A stretch of 64,000 nucleotides of DNA from Citricoccus muralis (GTDB taxonomy: Bacteria > Actinomycetota > Actinomycetes > Actinomycetales > Micrococcaceae): positions 2,604,001 to 2,668,000 of the forward strand of contig NZ_CP121252.1 of assembly GCF_029637705.1 (NCBI RefSeq). The letters run 5' to 3'. The notes beneath the pieces were generated by a model. It was not told the DNA's origin and searched no databases. It saw only the letters and a program-made list of their open reading frames with translations. Below are positions 4,144 to 48,158 of this stretch, piece by piece. Each line of letters begins with the position of its first letter. Position 1 is the first letter of the stretch. The position numbers and the translations under genes were made by a program.

Positions 4144-4260
4144 ATCAGAATCACGAGTTCCAGTGCGTAGCCCTGGCTAACGGGACGGCAACCCTCTTCG
4201 CGTAGTGGGGTGCTCCAGGTGATGATTCGGCCACCGGGTCCACCGGCCGGCAAGTACCGC
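4144..4260 (+). promoter_or_regulatory. SAM riboswitch (SAM-I/SAM-IV superfamily, best fit SAM-IV)
   Basis: The core matches the conserved SAM-IV aptamer. A closing P1 stem pairs GAATCA (4148-4153) with TGATTC (4223-4228). Between them lie the CACGAGTTCCAG segment, the CGGCAACCCTC block, TAGTGGGGTGC and CCAGGTGATGA, all in the usual order. GC-rich complementary segments after P1 (about 4229-4255) could form the extra helix and pseudoknot that distinguish SAM-IV from SAM-I. The element normally lowers expression of the downstream gene when S-adenosylmethionine is plentiful, so the flavin reductase should be made under methionine or sulfur shortage. Assignment is by eye; the SAM-I/IV variant class cannot be excluded. 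Confidence 0.85.
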
Positions 4261-4287
4261 GTCTCCGCCGCCCACGGTTGCGGAAGC

Positions 4288-4306: not shown

Positions 4307-4873
4307 ATGTCTGCTGTGACCTTTGCCCAGAAGAACGACACCACCGACTTCCCCGAGACCCGCGTCGGACTCTCTGATGACGTCTCCGCCCTGAGCCTGC
4401 GCCAGGCGTTCTCCCAGTTCCCCTCCGGGGTGGCCGCACTCGCCGGCTACGCGGGCGGAGTCAAGGAGGGCCTGGCCGCCTCGTCCTTCACTGTGGGCGT
4501 GTCCCTGGATCCGCCGCTGGTGGCCTTCGCCGTGCAGAACACCTCCCGCACCTGGCCGCGACTGCGTCACGCCGAGCGCATCGGCGTCTCGATTCTGGGC
4601 GAATCCCAGACCGGGGTGTGCACCCAGCTGGCCTCCAAGAACGGTGACCGCTTCGAGGGCCAGAACCTGCAGGTCTCCGAACAGGGTGCCGTGTTCTTCG
4701 ATGACGCCGCCCTGTGGTTGGAAACCTCCGTGTACGCCGAGCTACCCGCTGGCGACCACCACATGGTGTTGCTCCAGGTGCACGGGGTCTCCGCCGGAAC
4801 CGACGCCGCCGAGCCGCTGGTATTCCACCGCTCCGCGTTCCGAAACCTCCGCACAGCCGAAGGCAATGAGTAA
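4307..4873 (+). CDS. Flavin reductase family protein (FMN-binding split barrel)
   Basis: A 188-residue protein with the flavin reductase-like signature: LRQAFSQFPSGVAALAG (residues 28-44), GLAASSFTVGVSLDPPLVAF (about 52-71), then SRTWPRL, ISILGESQ-like strand and the histidine-rich GDHHMVLLQV strand. Family members reduce FMN with NAD(P)H, often supplying reduced flavin to a partner monooxygenase. Control by a SAM riboswitch suggests a part in sulfur or methionine economy, for example feeding a desulfonating monooxygenase; no such partner is adjacent, so this is inference. The S4-domain gene follows after 18 bases and is probably in the same transcript. Confidence 0.88.
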   Translation: MSAVTFAQKNDTTDFPETRVGLSDDVSALSLRQAFSQFPSGVAALAGYAGGVKEGLAASSFTVGVSLDPPLVAFAVQNTSRTWPRLRHAERIGVSILGESQTGVCTQLASKNGDRFEGQNLQVSEQGAVFFDDAALWLETSVYAELPAGDHHMVLLQVHGVSAGTDAAEPLVFHRSAFRNLRTAEGNE

Positions 4874-28366: not shown

Positions 28367-28790
28367 GCCGCAGCCCGAATCACGCGCCGGTATTGCGGTC
28401 CCAGTGGAGGTTTCCTCGCGGAAGTGGAAGCCGCGGGTTCTTGGGCTACGAGCACGGCGGCTCCAGTCAGAGTGCAGGTCAAATCGTAGGCCACAGCAAC
28501 GCCCCCAGCTCCAGAGCGTCGAGACGCAACGGAGCGTGAGGATCCGGGGAAGGAAACCATGTATTCAGCACCTGCTTCATCAGTAACACCGCATACCAGT
28601 GTCCGGAGTTTTCGGGCACACCAGTGACCACGATAGAAGATGGAGTGGGAAGCCACTTGTCATCTCGCGGGACCCGACAAAGAACACTCGAGATGTCACA
28701 GACATTTACGACGACGACACGGTTTCCATCGCTACTGAAACGTCACTTCGGTTAGCTATCCTCGCCCCACTGTGCCACAATGAGCACGTT
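28367..28790. other. Intergenic stretch, no gene recognised
   Basis: About 420 bases between the LysR gene and the structured leader of the symporter. Open frames on both strands exist but have no ribosome-binding site, no recognisable motif and Arg/Pro-rich composition expected of random GC-rich frames. No mobile-element end or tRNA was seen. The last 60 bases are relatively AT-rich and probably hold the symporter promoter. Confidence 0.5.
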
Positions 28791-28835
28791 CAGCCCGAGC
28801 TGAAGCTCATGAGATGTGAGCGACGCAGGCGCGCG

Positions 28836-29027
28836 CCGACCCCACAGGGTCGGGACTGTGCAGCCGGTCGACGATCCAGCATGAGCGCCCGACGCGGTCC
28901 GAGAGGGACCCCCGCTGGAAACGCAGCGACGGGACGAGCGTTCATTCACGCCTGAAGAGGGCGCTCGTCAGCGAGCCCGGGCCCTGCGGCGCCACCCGCG
29001 CCGCAGCCTGACCGACGAGCGAAAGGA
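28836..29027 (+). promoter_or_regulatory. Candidate cis-regulatory RNA leader with competing stems
   Basis: Four perfect hairpins lie in the leader of the symporter gene: CCGACCC/GGGTCGG (28836-28853), GGTCC/GGACC (28896-28910), GACGAGCG/CGCTCGTC (28933-28969) and CTGCGGC/GCCGCAG (28984-29006). The octamer GACGAGCG occurs again at 29014-29021, directly abutting the GAAAGGA ribosome-binding site. Hence CGCTCGTC (28962-28969) can pair with either copy, and pairing with the second copy would place the ribosome-binding site beside or within a long helix. This is the layout of a translational switch. It does not match any riboswitch class I know. Confidence 0.45.
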
Positions 29028-29032
29028 AACGC

Positions 29033-30757
29033 GTGCCGCCAGCTACGGATGCACCAGAACTCAGTCAACTCTCCATTCCCGTGGTGATCCTGCTTATTGT
29101 GATCTTCTACGGGGGAACCCTGTTGATGTCCTTCATCATCGGGCGCAAGAAGGAGAATGCCGACGCGTACATGACCGCGGGAAACCGCATCGGCTTCGGC
29201 GTTTCAGCCGCTTCGATGACCGCCACCTGGATTTGGGCATCATCCATGTACGCCTCGGCGGAAGCCGGCTACAACTACGGCGTCTCCGGACCGATCCACT
29301 ATGGTCTCTGGGGCGCGCTGATGATCCTGTTCATCTACCCGTTCGGACGGCGCATCCGAAAGGTCGCCCCACGCGCGCACACGCTTGCCGAGGTCATGTA
29401 CGCCCGGCACGGCCGGTCCTCCCAGCTGATGCTGGCCGGCTCGAATGTGCTCGGTTCGGTCATCTCGCTGACCTCCAACTTCATTGCCGGTGGCGCACTG
29501 ATCGCCATCCTCTCCCCGCTGAGCTTCGGCGCAGGCATTGTGATTGTCGCCGCGGGTGTGCTGCTCTACACCCTGTGGTCCGGATTCCGCGCCTCGGTGC
29601 TTACCGACTTCGCGCAGGTGATGGCCATGCTGGGTGCCGCCGCGATCATCATCCCGGTGATCTTCTTCGTGGCGGGTGGCCCGGGCATGTTCGAGGCCGG
29701 CGTATCCGCGGGCAACGTCACCGCCCAGCAGCAGAACTTCTTCTCCTCGGATGCGTTCATGAACCAGGGCGCACCCTACATCGCTGCCGTGCTGGCCTAC
29801 GCCATCGGCAACCAGACCATTGCCCAGCGTCTCTTCGCGGTGCGTGAGGACCTGATCAAGCCGACCTTCATCACCGCGACGGTAGGGTATGGCGCCACCG
29901 TGATCGGTATCGGCATGCTCGGCGTGATGGCACTCTACCTGGGCGTCGAGCCGCTGCAGGGCGACACCAACAACCTGATCCCGCAGATGGCCGGCACCTA
30001 CCTCGGCCCCGTGCTGCTGGCGCTGGCTTTCATCATGATCATCGGTTCGCTGTCGTCGACGGCGGACTCTGATCTGTCGGCGCTGTCCTCGATCGTCATG
30101 ACCGACATCTACGGCCAAGGCAAGGGCCGCAAGAACGTGAACCCTCGGTTCATGCTCCTCGTCGGCCGCATCACGATGATCGTCGCGACCGCCGCAGCGT
30201 TGTATTTCGCCACCGCCCGGTTCAGCATCCTGGACCTGTTGGTGTTCGTGGGCGCACTCTGGGGCTGCCTGGTCTTCCCGGTGATCGCCTCGTTCTACTG
30301 GAAGAAGGTCACCAACGCCGCCTTCACCGTCTCAGTGTTGGCCGCTCTGGCGTTCTTCCTACCGGTGCGCTTCGACTGGATTCCGGCCGTGGGCGCCTGG
30401 GGCATCGTCGTCGAGGCCCTGGCGATCGTCGGAATCGGCGTGGTACTGGGCATCATGTCCTTCGGGTTCTTCGGGATGCGCCCGGCGATCATCGTCGGCA
30501 CGGTGGCTGTCGTTGCGGTGCTGCCCTTCGGTTTCGGTTACCTGCGCGACTACCCGGTGCTCTCCGGTTCGCTCGTCGCCTACGCCGTGAGCTTCCTGGT
30601 CTGCTACTTCATGTCGTTCCGGTCCCAGCAGGACTACGACTTCAGCAAGATCGCCAAGGTGACCGGCAACTTCGATGAGTCCACCCCGGCCGCCACCGAC
30701 GTCAACGGCTCCACCGACGAACTCACCGCATCCGCTTCAACCCAAGGAGAGAAGTAA
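29033..30757 (+). CDS. Sodium:solute symporter family (SSS) transporter
   Basis: A 574-residue protein starting at GTG 29033 behind GAAAGGA. About 13 helices are predicted. SSS features: N-terminal GRKKENADAYMTAGNRIGFG, the ATWIWASSMYASAEAGYNYG region of helices 2-3 and the sodium-site-like SLSSTADSDLSALSSIVMTD. A hydrophilic Ser/Thr/Asp-rich tail ends the chain. The overall pattern resembles the urea/DUR3- and acetate-like branch; the substrate is not readable. It is followed after two bases by a 42-residue partner gene, and preceded by an unusual structured leader. Confidence 0.9.
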   Translation: MPPATDAPELSQLSIPVVILLIVIFYGGTLLMSFIIGRKKENADAYMTAGNRIGFGVSAASMTATWIWASSMYASAEAGYNYGVSGPIHYGLWGALMILFIYPFGRRIRKVAPRAHTLAEVMYARHGRSSQLMLAGSNVLGSVISLTSNFIAGGALIAILSPLSFGAGIVIVAAGVLLYTLWSGFRASVLTDFAQVMAMLGAAAIIIPVIFFVAGGPGMFEAGVSAGNVTAQQQNFFSSDAFMNQGAPYIAAVLAYAIGNQTIAQRLFAVREDLIKPTFITATVGYGATVIGIGMLGVMALYLGVEPLQGDTNNLIPQMAGTYLGPVLLALAFIMIIGSLSSTADSDLSALSSIVMTDIYGQGKGRKNVNPRFMLLVGRITMIVATAAALYFATARFSILDLLVFVGALWGCLVFPVIASFYWKKVTNAAFTVSVLAALAFFLPVRFDWIPAVGAWGIVVEALAIVGIGVVLGIMSFGFFGMRPAIIVGTVAVVAVLPFGFGYLRDYPVLSGSLVAYAVSFLVCYFMSFRSQQDYDFSKIAKVTGNFDESTPAATDVNGSTDELTASASTQGEK

Positions 30758-30759
30758 CC

Positions 30760-30888
30760 ATGACAGTGGGACTGACCATCTATGTTCTGATGTGGCCGAT
30801 CCTGGTCGCCATCATCATGTTCGTGATCGCCCGCGGATTCTTCGCTGACTGGCGCGAGGCACGCGAGGAGGGCCGGTCGATCATCTGA
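30760..30888 (+). CDS. Small membrane subunit of the SSS transporter (42 residues)
   Basis: ATG 30760 follows the symporter stop by two bases and has an AAGGAGAG ribosome-binding site about ten bases upstream. The product is one hydrophobic helix (VGLTIYVLMWPILVAIIMFV) followed by a charged amphipathic end (FFADWREAREEGRSII). Short single-helix proteins of this shape regularly follow SSS-type and NSS-type symporters in actinobacteria and are annotated as putative transporter small subunits, by analogy with MetS. A strong terminator follows 35 bases after the stop, so symporter and small protein form one transcript. Confidence 0.8.
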   Translation: MTVGLTIYVLMWPILVAIIMFVIARGFFADWREAREEGRSII

Positions 30889-47682: not shown

Positions 47683-48158
47683 CAGCGCCCGTACCGGTAT
47701 GGGTGGCTCCAGGGCCAGGCCACCGCAATCCAGTCCACTAACGCGAGCGCCAGCACTTCATCCAGGTGCGCGTGATCAGCGCGCACCCAGGACTGCACCG
47801 ATACGTCGCGCTCGGGCCGCCGGGCAGCCTCCGGAATCTCCGCGGCCGGGTACAGGTATACGCACCCCACCACCTCATCGGCCGGGTTCAGCACGGTGAA
47901 GGTGAATCCGCGCCGGGCCTCGAAGTCGCTCGCATGCCGTTCCAGGTCCGCCCGGTTCCGTTCCGGCGTCATCCCCTCCACCGGCGGCCACGACCCATCG
48001 GGATATCCCGGGGTGGCCCGAATGTGTTCCACGCTCGAGCTCCACGCCGCCAGGTCCGCCTCGTTGTGCTGCGGCCCCAGCGGCTCGAGCCGGAACTGCT
48101 CGGTGACCAGCGAGCGCGGCGGGTCGAAATCTGCGGGGAGGAACTCCTGCGGTGCCAT
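47682..48158 (-). CDS. GNAT-type N-acetyltransferase
   Basis: A 158-residue protein of the GNAT fold: N-terminal FRLEPLGPQHNEADLAAWSS, middle FTFTVLNPADEVVGCVYLYP forming the beta4-beta5 pair, and the VQSWVRADHAHLDEVLALAL segment near the acetyl-CoA site, where the usual Q/RxxGxG/A loop is weakly conserved. Acceptor unknown. It is the first gene of an acetyltransferase - MFS - small membrane protein group, divergent from the alcohol dehydrogenase. Confidence 0.75.
   Translation of the reverse strand: MAPQEFLPADFDPPRSLVTEQFRLEPLGPQHNEADLAAWSSSVEHIRATPGYPDGSWPPVEGMTPERNRADLERHASDFEARRGFTFTVLNPADEVVGCVYLYPAAEIPEAARRPERDVSVQSWVRADHAHLDEVLALALVDWIAVAWPWSHPYRYGR

Follow-up and report, generated by a model that had tools for sequence, protein, structure and literature searches.

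Rfam includes riboswitch classes for Na+ and Li+. Among described RNAs, the nearest precedent for the one reported here is a riboswitch candidate found before another symporter pair, the TIGR03647 motif, for which translation control is suspected and no ligand is known (PMC6429828). The present locus lies in a stretch of 64,000 nucleotides of the Citricoccus muralis genome (contig NZ_CP121252.1, positions 2,604,001 to 2,668,000; hereafter the window, in whose numbering positions are given). It consists of a leader RNA, some 245 nt long (about 28788 to 29032), that runs on the plus strand up to the GTG start, at 29033, of a sodium:solute symporter (SSS) family gene. Its helices are kept by compensatory changes, and it stands at a constant position before this one gene. 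The leader is conserved, undescribed in the sources searched, and of a known kind, that of structured leader RNAs; it is genuine and lineage-specific, and most likely acts in cis. Judged from sequence, it probably, if by a narrow balance, regulates both the symporter and its small partner, in cis, in C. muralis and Yaniella.

Architecture of the Leader RNA

In the aligned leaders, the conserved RNA extends from GTTCA (28788 in the window) to the ribosome-binding site (RBS). A first-pass annotation of the window had drawn a folded leader at 28836–29030; the RNA is indeed folded, but it begins 48 nt further upstream, so that the annotated interval misses P1, P2, and P3 on their 5′ sides (up to 28835). 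By sequence, the window leader groups with L002, L003, L004, L040, and L085, of which L003, L004, and L040 are from Yaniella and L002 is from a Micrococcaceae metagenome-assembled genome. A seventh, partial copy (L134), cut at a contig end, was used only for the domain I–II, P1–P2, and IIIa counts. The leader is composed as follows.

28788–28804, plus strand: domain I hairpin (TTCAGC/GCTGAA), with a double change from A-U to G-C in the window and one mismatch each in L003 and L085
28805–28886, plus strand: domain II, a long hairpin in the consensus fold, with structure counts on seven sequences
28805–28811/28880–28886, plus strand: P1 (GCTCATG/CATGAGC), which pairs in 7/7 sequences, with two double changes
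28821–28824/28867–28870, plus strand: P2 core (CGAC/GTCG), part of domain II
28828–28835/28857–28865, plus strand: P3 (GGCGCGCG/TGTGCAGCC), which hardly varies
28836–28838/28851–28853, plus strand: P4 (CCG/CGG), which hardly varies
28887–28982, plus strand: domain III, closed by PB (GCCCG/CGGGC, 28887–28891/28978–28982), with hand-chosen arms of 5–6 bp in 6/6 leaders and changed pairs in L085
28896–28910, plus strand: hairpin IIIa (GGTCC/GGACC), chosen by hand, with GGUC/GACC, GGUC/GGCC, and GGUU/AACC in relatives
28986–29004, plus strand: hairpin IV (GCGGCGC/GCGCCGC), with three outer pairs broken in L085 and one mismatch each in L003, L004, and L040
29021–29027, plus strand: RBS (GAAAGGA), with AAAGGA in 6/6 leaders that reach it

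Most of the invariant bases sit in domain II, and in the consensus fold 10/63 pairs have both sides changed somewhere. Of the two double changes in P1, L002 has the one from G-C to A-U and the window the one from C-G to U-A; P3 and P4, which hardly vary, say little. IIIa keeps four pairs in 7/7 sequences, and hairpin IV shows variation on both sides with partial breaks in four of six leaders. The domain I hairpin and domain II (P1–P4) rest on comparison, whereas the PB-closed domain III, IIIa, and IV rest on hand-chosen helices and for that reason weigh less than the domain I–II counts. Two perfect hairpins that the first-pass annotation had pointed out are present, CCGACCC/GGGTCGG (28836–28842/28847–28853) and GGTCC/GGACC (28896–28900/28906–28910). 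A local hairpin between the P1 5′ strand and the GUGGG just after it competes with P1, and 97.6% of its cells pair, with no double change; a switch between the two is possible, and the evidence favors P1.

Comparative Support for the Structure

For the 34 pairs counted in seven sequences, the share of paired cells is 97.0%, against a shuffle mean of 94.8, and five pairs are double-changed, against a shuffle mean of 0.8; each value is reached by 0/500 shuffles. Compensatory changes in orthologous leaders, a test set beforehand by the first-pass annotation, are found in these seven-leader structure counts, and further ones in the hand-chosen helices PB, IIIa, and IV. The minimum free energy of 28836–29050 is −100.1 kcal/mol (z = −2.42; 2/200 shuffles equally good), and the median z is −0.92 in the 200 nt before symporters against −0.58 in upstream control stretches (Wilcoxon p = 0.024).

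Several results count against this structure. The comparative support comes from seven sequences of two neighboring genera, in which further pair types are not above shuffles (304/500), and the RNAalifold covariation term is +0.11, which by its measure is none. Slid versions of the structure pair in 30–39% of cells, a control that favors the structure because the structure was derived from the same sequences. An unbiased stem scan gave 20 double-change stems against 6–19 in 20 column shuffles, so that single short stems from the scan, which also returned a six-pair match between the 28828–28835 strand and the 3′ arm of hairpin IV, prove little. Values of z below −2 are hardly distinctive (16/97 leaders, 16/95 controls); energy alone hardly marks the leaders, and the argument rests on covariation.

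Distribution Among Relatives

A contig scan for the symporter gave 561 relatives, from which the best 80 loci were retained, and the symporter is encoded in 92/395 genomes of the family at E values up to 1e-150. The leader set comprised 132 entries (131 loci and a piece of the window), of which 119 were located, 13 short pieces giving no tblastn match; removal of duplicates left 98 distinct entries, window included, whose upstream regions form lineage groups and singletons when sorted by sequence. The window genome, 3.13 Mb on a single contig, is the one genome of its genus in the comparison set.

Covariance model R1 matches 8/395 family genomes at E up to 0.05. Strong matches (E below 1e-13) occur in 7/395 genomes, with one copy each in the window genome and in six genomes of genus g21, the genus of Y. 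halotolerans. They precede an SSS gene in six of the seven; the seventh (L134) ends at a contig edge. The eighth genome, G221, is matched weakly (E 0.03); the locus given for a weak R1 match is L139. In an order-wide sample, R1 matches 1/396 genomes, that of the window itself, the six g21 genomes evidently not having been drawn.

Some symporter loci are of separate interest. Yaniella genomes can hold a further symporter, 70–73% identical (G048:C1:108520-110115, L080), for which R1 gave no leader match. Three records named Brevundimonas (L069, L071, L077) encode symporters 72–74% identical to that of the window; Brevundimonas is an alphaproteobacterium, and this identity suggests transfer between phyla. 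L099 and L103 are two of four family-search symporter matches with a TAG stop codon in the aligned stretch.

The Symporter Gene, Its Small Partner, and a Probable Transcription Start

The leader is flanked by the following features.

29033–30757, plus strand: SSS family gene, 574 aa (PF00474; TIGR00813 below its cut-off)
30760–30888, plus strand: 42-aa putative transporter small subunit (NF038354, above cut-off)
28752–28787, plus strand: promoter-like block, partly conserved in 7/7 leaders, with TTAGCTATCC at 28752–28761 and CACAAT at 28776–28781

The window symporter gives no TIGR03648 match. By a scripted count, a similar small open reading frame (ORF) follows the SSS gene in 5/5 relatives examined, four bases past the position of the symporter stop codon. 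Transcription likely starts at about 28783–28788, a position that we infer from the promoter-like block because the promoter search found no consensus sigma-70 site; a start downstream of 28940, which the first-pass annotation had named as fatal to its RNA, is disfavored. No terminator-like site was found at the leader, and the search for a peptide-coding leader found no upstream ORF with a consistent stop common to at least 5/6 leaders, as start columns common to 5–6/6 leaders have inconsistent lengths and stops. Gene neighborhood was set aside as a clue to the substrate of the symporter: ten neighbor proteins at nine loci belong mostly to different families (DNA methylase twice; two without a family). 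A substrate-sensing leader RNA, if true, would be a direct route to the substrate.

Octamer Repeats Near the RBS

The first-pass annotation had centered on an octamer, CGCTCGTC (28962–28969), that can pair with two copies of GACGAGCG, at 28933–28940 and at 29014–29021, and had read the exact repeat as a hallmark of a translational switch. The octamers match letter for letter at these places, and the copy at 29014–29021 does touch the RBS upstream of the GTG. The two elements concerned are as follows.

28933–28969, plus strand: hairpin with the first octamer pair, exact in its letters; the hairpins of relatives were seen by eye and align poorly
29014–29021, plus strand: third octamer copy, whose perfect alternative pairing lacks conservation

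The repeat is less telling than had been supposed. When the 195-nt stretch is shuffled 5000 times with its dinucleotides kept, 1.8% of the shuffles contain an 8-mer that has two copies of its reverse complement, and the same kind of triple is found in 27/1277 overlapping 195-nt windows of the 64 kb. The triple is thus a mild local oddity, mildly unusual and expected somewhere in the window, and by itself it is no hallmark of a switch.

In the proposed switch, 28962–28969 would pair either with 28933–28940 (open) or with 29014–29021 (closed). Its complementarity is perfect within the window, and an 8-bp Watson–Crick match to the RBS segment is reached in a fraction of 0.0025 of 2000 body shuffles. 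The aligned columns of the alternative helix pair in 67% of cells (3/500 shuffles) with a covariation score reached by 4/500, and the five relatives that reach the RBS have matches of 6–8 bp between the RBS-proximal segment and some part of domain III if G-U pairs are allowed, a figure without a shuffle control. However, the perfect alternative helix occurs in 0/5 of these relatives, in which the RBS-adjacent segment reads GTTCGAGCG, GTTTGAGCG, or GTTAATAG; none has more than five contiguous Watson–Crick pairs, and their longest such matches to domain III, 4–5 bp, are as in shuffles. Two pairs of the alternative helix fail in 5/6 sequences, and its two double-changed pairs are equaled by 57/500 shuffles. 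A broken 5-of-7 version, which aligns weakly, can be drawn in four of the five relatives. With triples of this kind found in 27/1277 windows as well, the octamer switch is not supported and appears very unlikely.

In the upstream octamer helix (28933–28940/28962–28969), which lies in a poorly aligned region, 65% of cells pair and the covariation score is equaled by 0/500 shuffles. Inspection by eye shows a hairpin, though of different letters, at this place in every relative, which makes a hairpin at 28933–28969 plausible; its competition with the RBS-side copy is most likely particular to the window.

Proposed Mechanism and Alternatives

Domain II would be the sensing part of the leader, for a small molecule, an ion, or a protein. 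Its output would be the part that starts with PB and ends at the GTG, acting on translation; the output is taken as translational because no terminator was seen. One further element enters into this scheme.

29030–29037, plus strand: CGCGTGCC around the GTG start, for which an 8-bp pairing with 28828–28835, the P3 5′ strand, is possible

In C. muralis, the invariant strand GGCGCGCG might stay in P3 or pair with CGCGTGCC and thereby hide the GTG. Modeled ensemble energies in the window are −133.5 kcal/mol with P1 and P3 fixed and −133.7 kcal/mol with the start pairing fixed. In five relatives, the start-pairing fold is 6–10 kcal/mol worse, so the hypothesis of such a switch is confined to the window, where it appears unlikely, as the computed P3 fold leaves the GTG mostly paired as well. 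Control at the start codon is further disfavored by the computed accessibilities: even when P1 and P3 are held in place, the unpaired fraction of the GTG is only 0.21 in the window and 0.08–0.40 in relatives. The leader might be a riboswitch, a protein-bound leader, or a thermosensor, the readings that the first-pass annotation had offered; in a thermosensor, the RBS would sit in a weak, temperature-labile helix, and its unpaired fraction is 0.49–0.83 in the unconstrained folds of six leaders computed at 37°C.

That last figure would suit an ordinary 5′ structure that stabilizes or insulates the mRNA without sensing, since the computed folds leave at least about half of the RBS unpaired, and the window leader is GC-rich and folds strongly; if the leader merely stabilizes its message, it is of small interest. 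The invariant blocks GCGCGCGCC and CTGTGCAGCC, however, appear to exceed the needs of a stabilizing hairpin, and we regard this explanation as rather improbable. A somewhat better case, still a minority one, can be made for domain II as a hairpin bound by a regulatory protein or a small RNA: it forms a single long hairpin, irregular and rich in invariant bases, and the leader is confined to one clade among those sampled, but there is no candidate protein. The least probable explanation, at best a slim chance, is that GC-rich palindromes have come together in an intergenic region free of RNA constraint. The hardly distinctive z-scores across orthologous leaders, the covariation term near zero, and the commonness of the octamer triple agree with it; the compensatory changes and slide controls do not, nor does the finding that strong covariance-model matches occur nowhere but at this leader. 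A cis-acting leader RNA with domain II as its putative sensing part is the preferred reading.

A Pseudoknotted Leader on Orthologous Symporters

Two crossing helices, A and B, characterize the leaders of orthologous symporter genes in Arthrobacter, Paeniglutamicibacter, and relatives. Alignment A7, which took in 15 of 28 located leaders without L044, places helix A at columns 4–10/111–117 and helix B at columns 26–31/137–142, and these are the two longest of 13 stems from an unbiased scan of the 15 aligned leaders. Loci with the pseudoknotted leader number 23 (L028, L042, L063, L073, and 19 more), and the leader lies no more than about 210 nt ahead of the symporter start. Helices A and B together with the last hairpin have 32 double-changed cells against a shuffle mean of 14.7 (0/500), nine double-changed pairs (12/500), and 23 further pair types (37/500); the last hairpin is out of register in several A7 rows, and 64% of its cells pair.

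Among the 23 Micrococcaceae leaders, of which several are nearly identical, 10 have G-C and 13 have A-U at one B pair, without a mismatch; at another, 22 have C-G and one has U-A. The outermost counted position is unpaired in 12/23. The last hairpin directly precedes the RBS and carries the 3′ strand of B in its loop; it has at least five pairs in 19/23 rows, the other four giving stems of four. In Nocardiopsis, hand placement on six leaders of one cluster (L033, L037, L043, L044, L053, L060), with a seventh locus, the singleton L021, left out, recovers the order A5–B5–A3–last hairpin with B3 in the loop; for L053, the scripted placement fell on a copy of the last arm that lies within the gene, the proper arm being visible in the sequence itself. 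The A sequences are different.

Among the 54 matches listed for covariance model R2, 23 leaders have E up to 0.026 and the other 31 matches have E of at least 0.11. R2 matches Nocardiopsis leaders weakly (L037, 0.11; L044, 8.6). The matches at E of at least 0.11 include L037, L041, and L044 (2892–2997), which lie in leaders, L027, which lies further upstream of the gene, and one in the window at 47710–47787 on the minus strand; the remainder were taken as chance without individual checks. In the order sample, R2 matches 4/396 genomes, two of them weakly (L142, L143). At E up to 2, no Rfam family matched the leader at L140, L141, or L124. A link between the two leaders was considered and dropped, as R2 gave no match in the window leader.

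Like the window leader, the pseudoknotted leader is long, precedes an orthologous gene, and is structured up to the RBS; unlike it, its helices A and B cross, and its last hairpin encloses the 3′ strand of B in the loop. It is conceivable, and we propose it tentatively, that in different actinobacterial lineages two or more undescribed leader RNAs control orthologs of one sodium symporter, one being the domain II leader (window, Yaniella) and another the crossing-helix pseudoknot (Micrococcaceae, Nocardiopsis); they may be separate riboswitch classes sensing the same substrate or Na+. Such a pair of unlike conserved leaders, standing before orthologous genes, would allow separate solutions to the same control problem to be compared.

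Comparison with Known Systems

That the leader lies outside the known riboswitch families, as the first-pass annotation had held, agrees with the database searches. Rfam 15 at the gathering threshold gave a single match in the whole window, SAM-IV, and none in the leader; at E up to 10, the interval 28700–29130 gave two chance matches and no family for the leader; and at E up to 2, the loci of four of the six relatives gave none in their leaders. The SAM-IV riboswitch (4149–4262, 77.6 bits) stands just before a 188-aa ORF (4307–4873) that by eye resembles a flavin reductase domain protein. A likeness of GGUCCGAGAG and ACGGGA to guanidine-I riboswitches was considered and dropped, no such Rfam match being found at E up to 10. 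The open-access literature searched contained no paper recognized as describing the window leader, and in the text reached by term searches of PMC11109978, PMC8632094, and PMC9337991 the word symporter occurs 0 times.

Compared with the TIGR03647 motif (PMC6429828), the window leader differs in gene order: the small-subunit gene comes first at that motif, whereas in the window the large gene, without a TIGR03648 match, comes first. Another point of difference is a hairpin of the motif that encompasses the RBS. Unlike the Na+ and Li+ riboswitches, the window leader has no Rfam match beyond the two chance ones. It resembles the Na+ riboswitch (DUF1646 motif; PMC9337991) and the Li+ riboswitches (PMC9646797) in being a leader RNA tied to ion transport.
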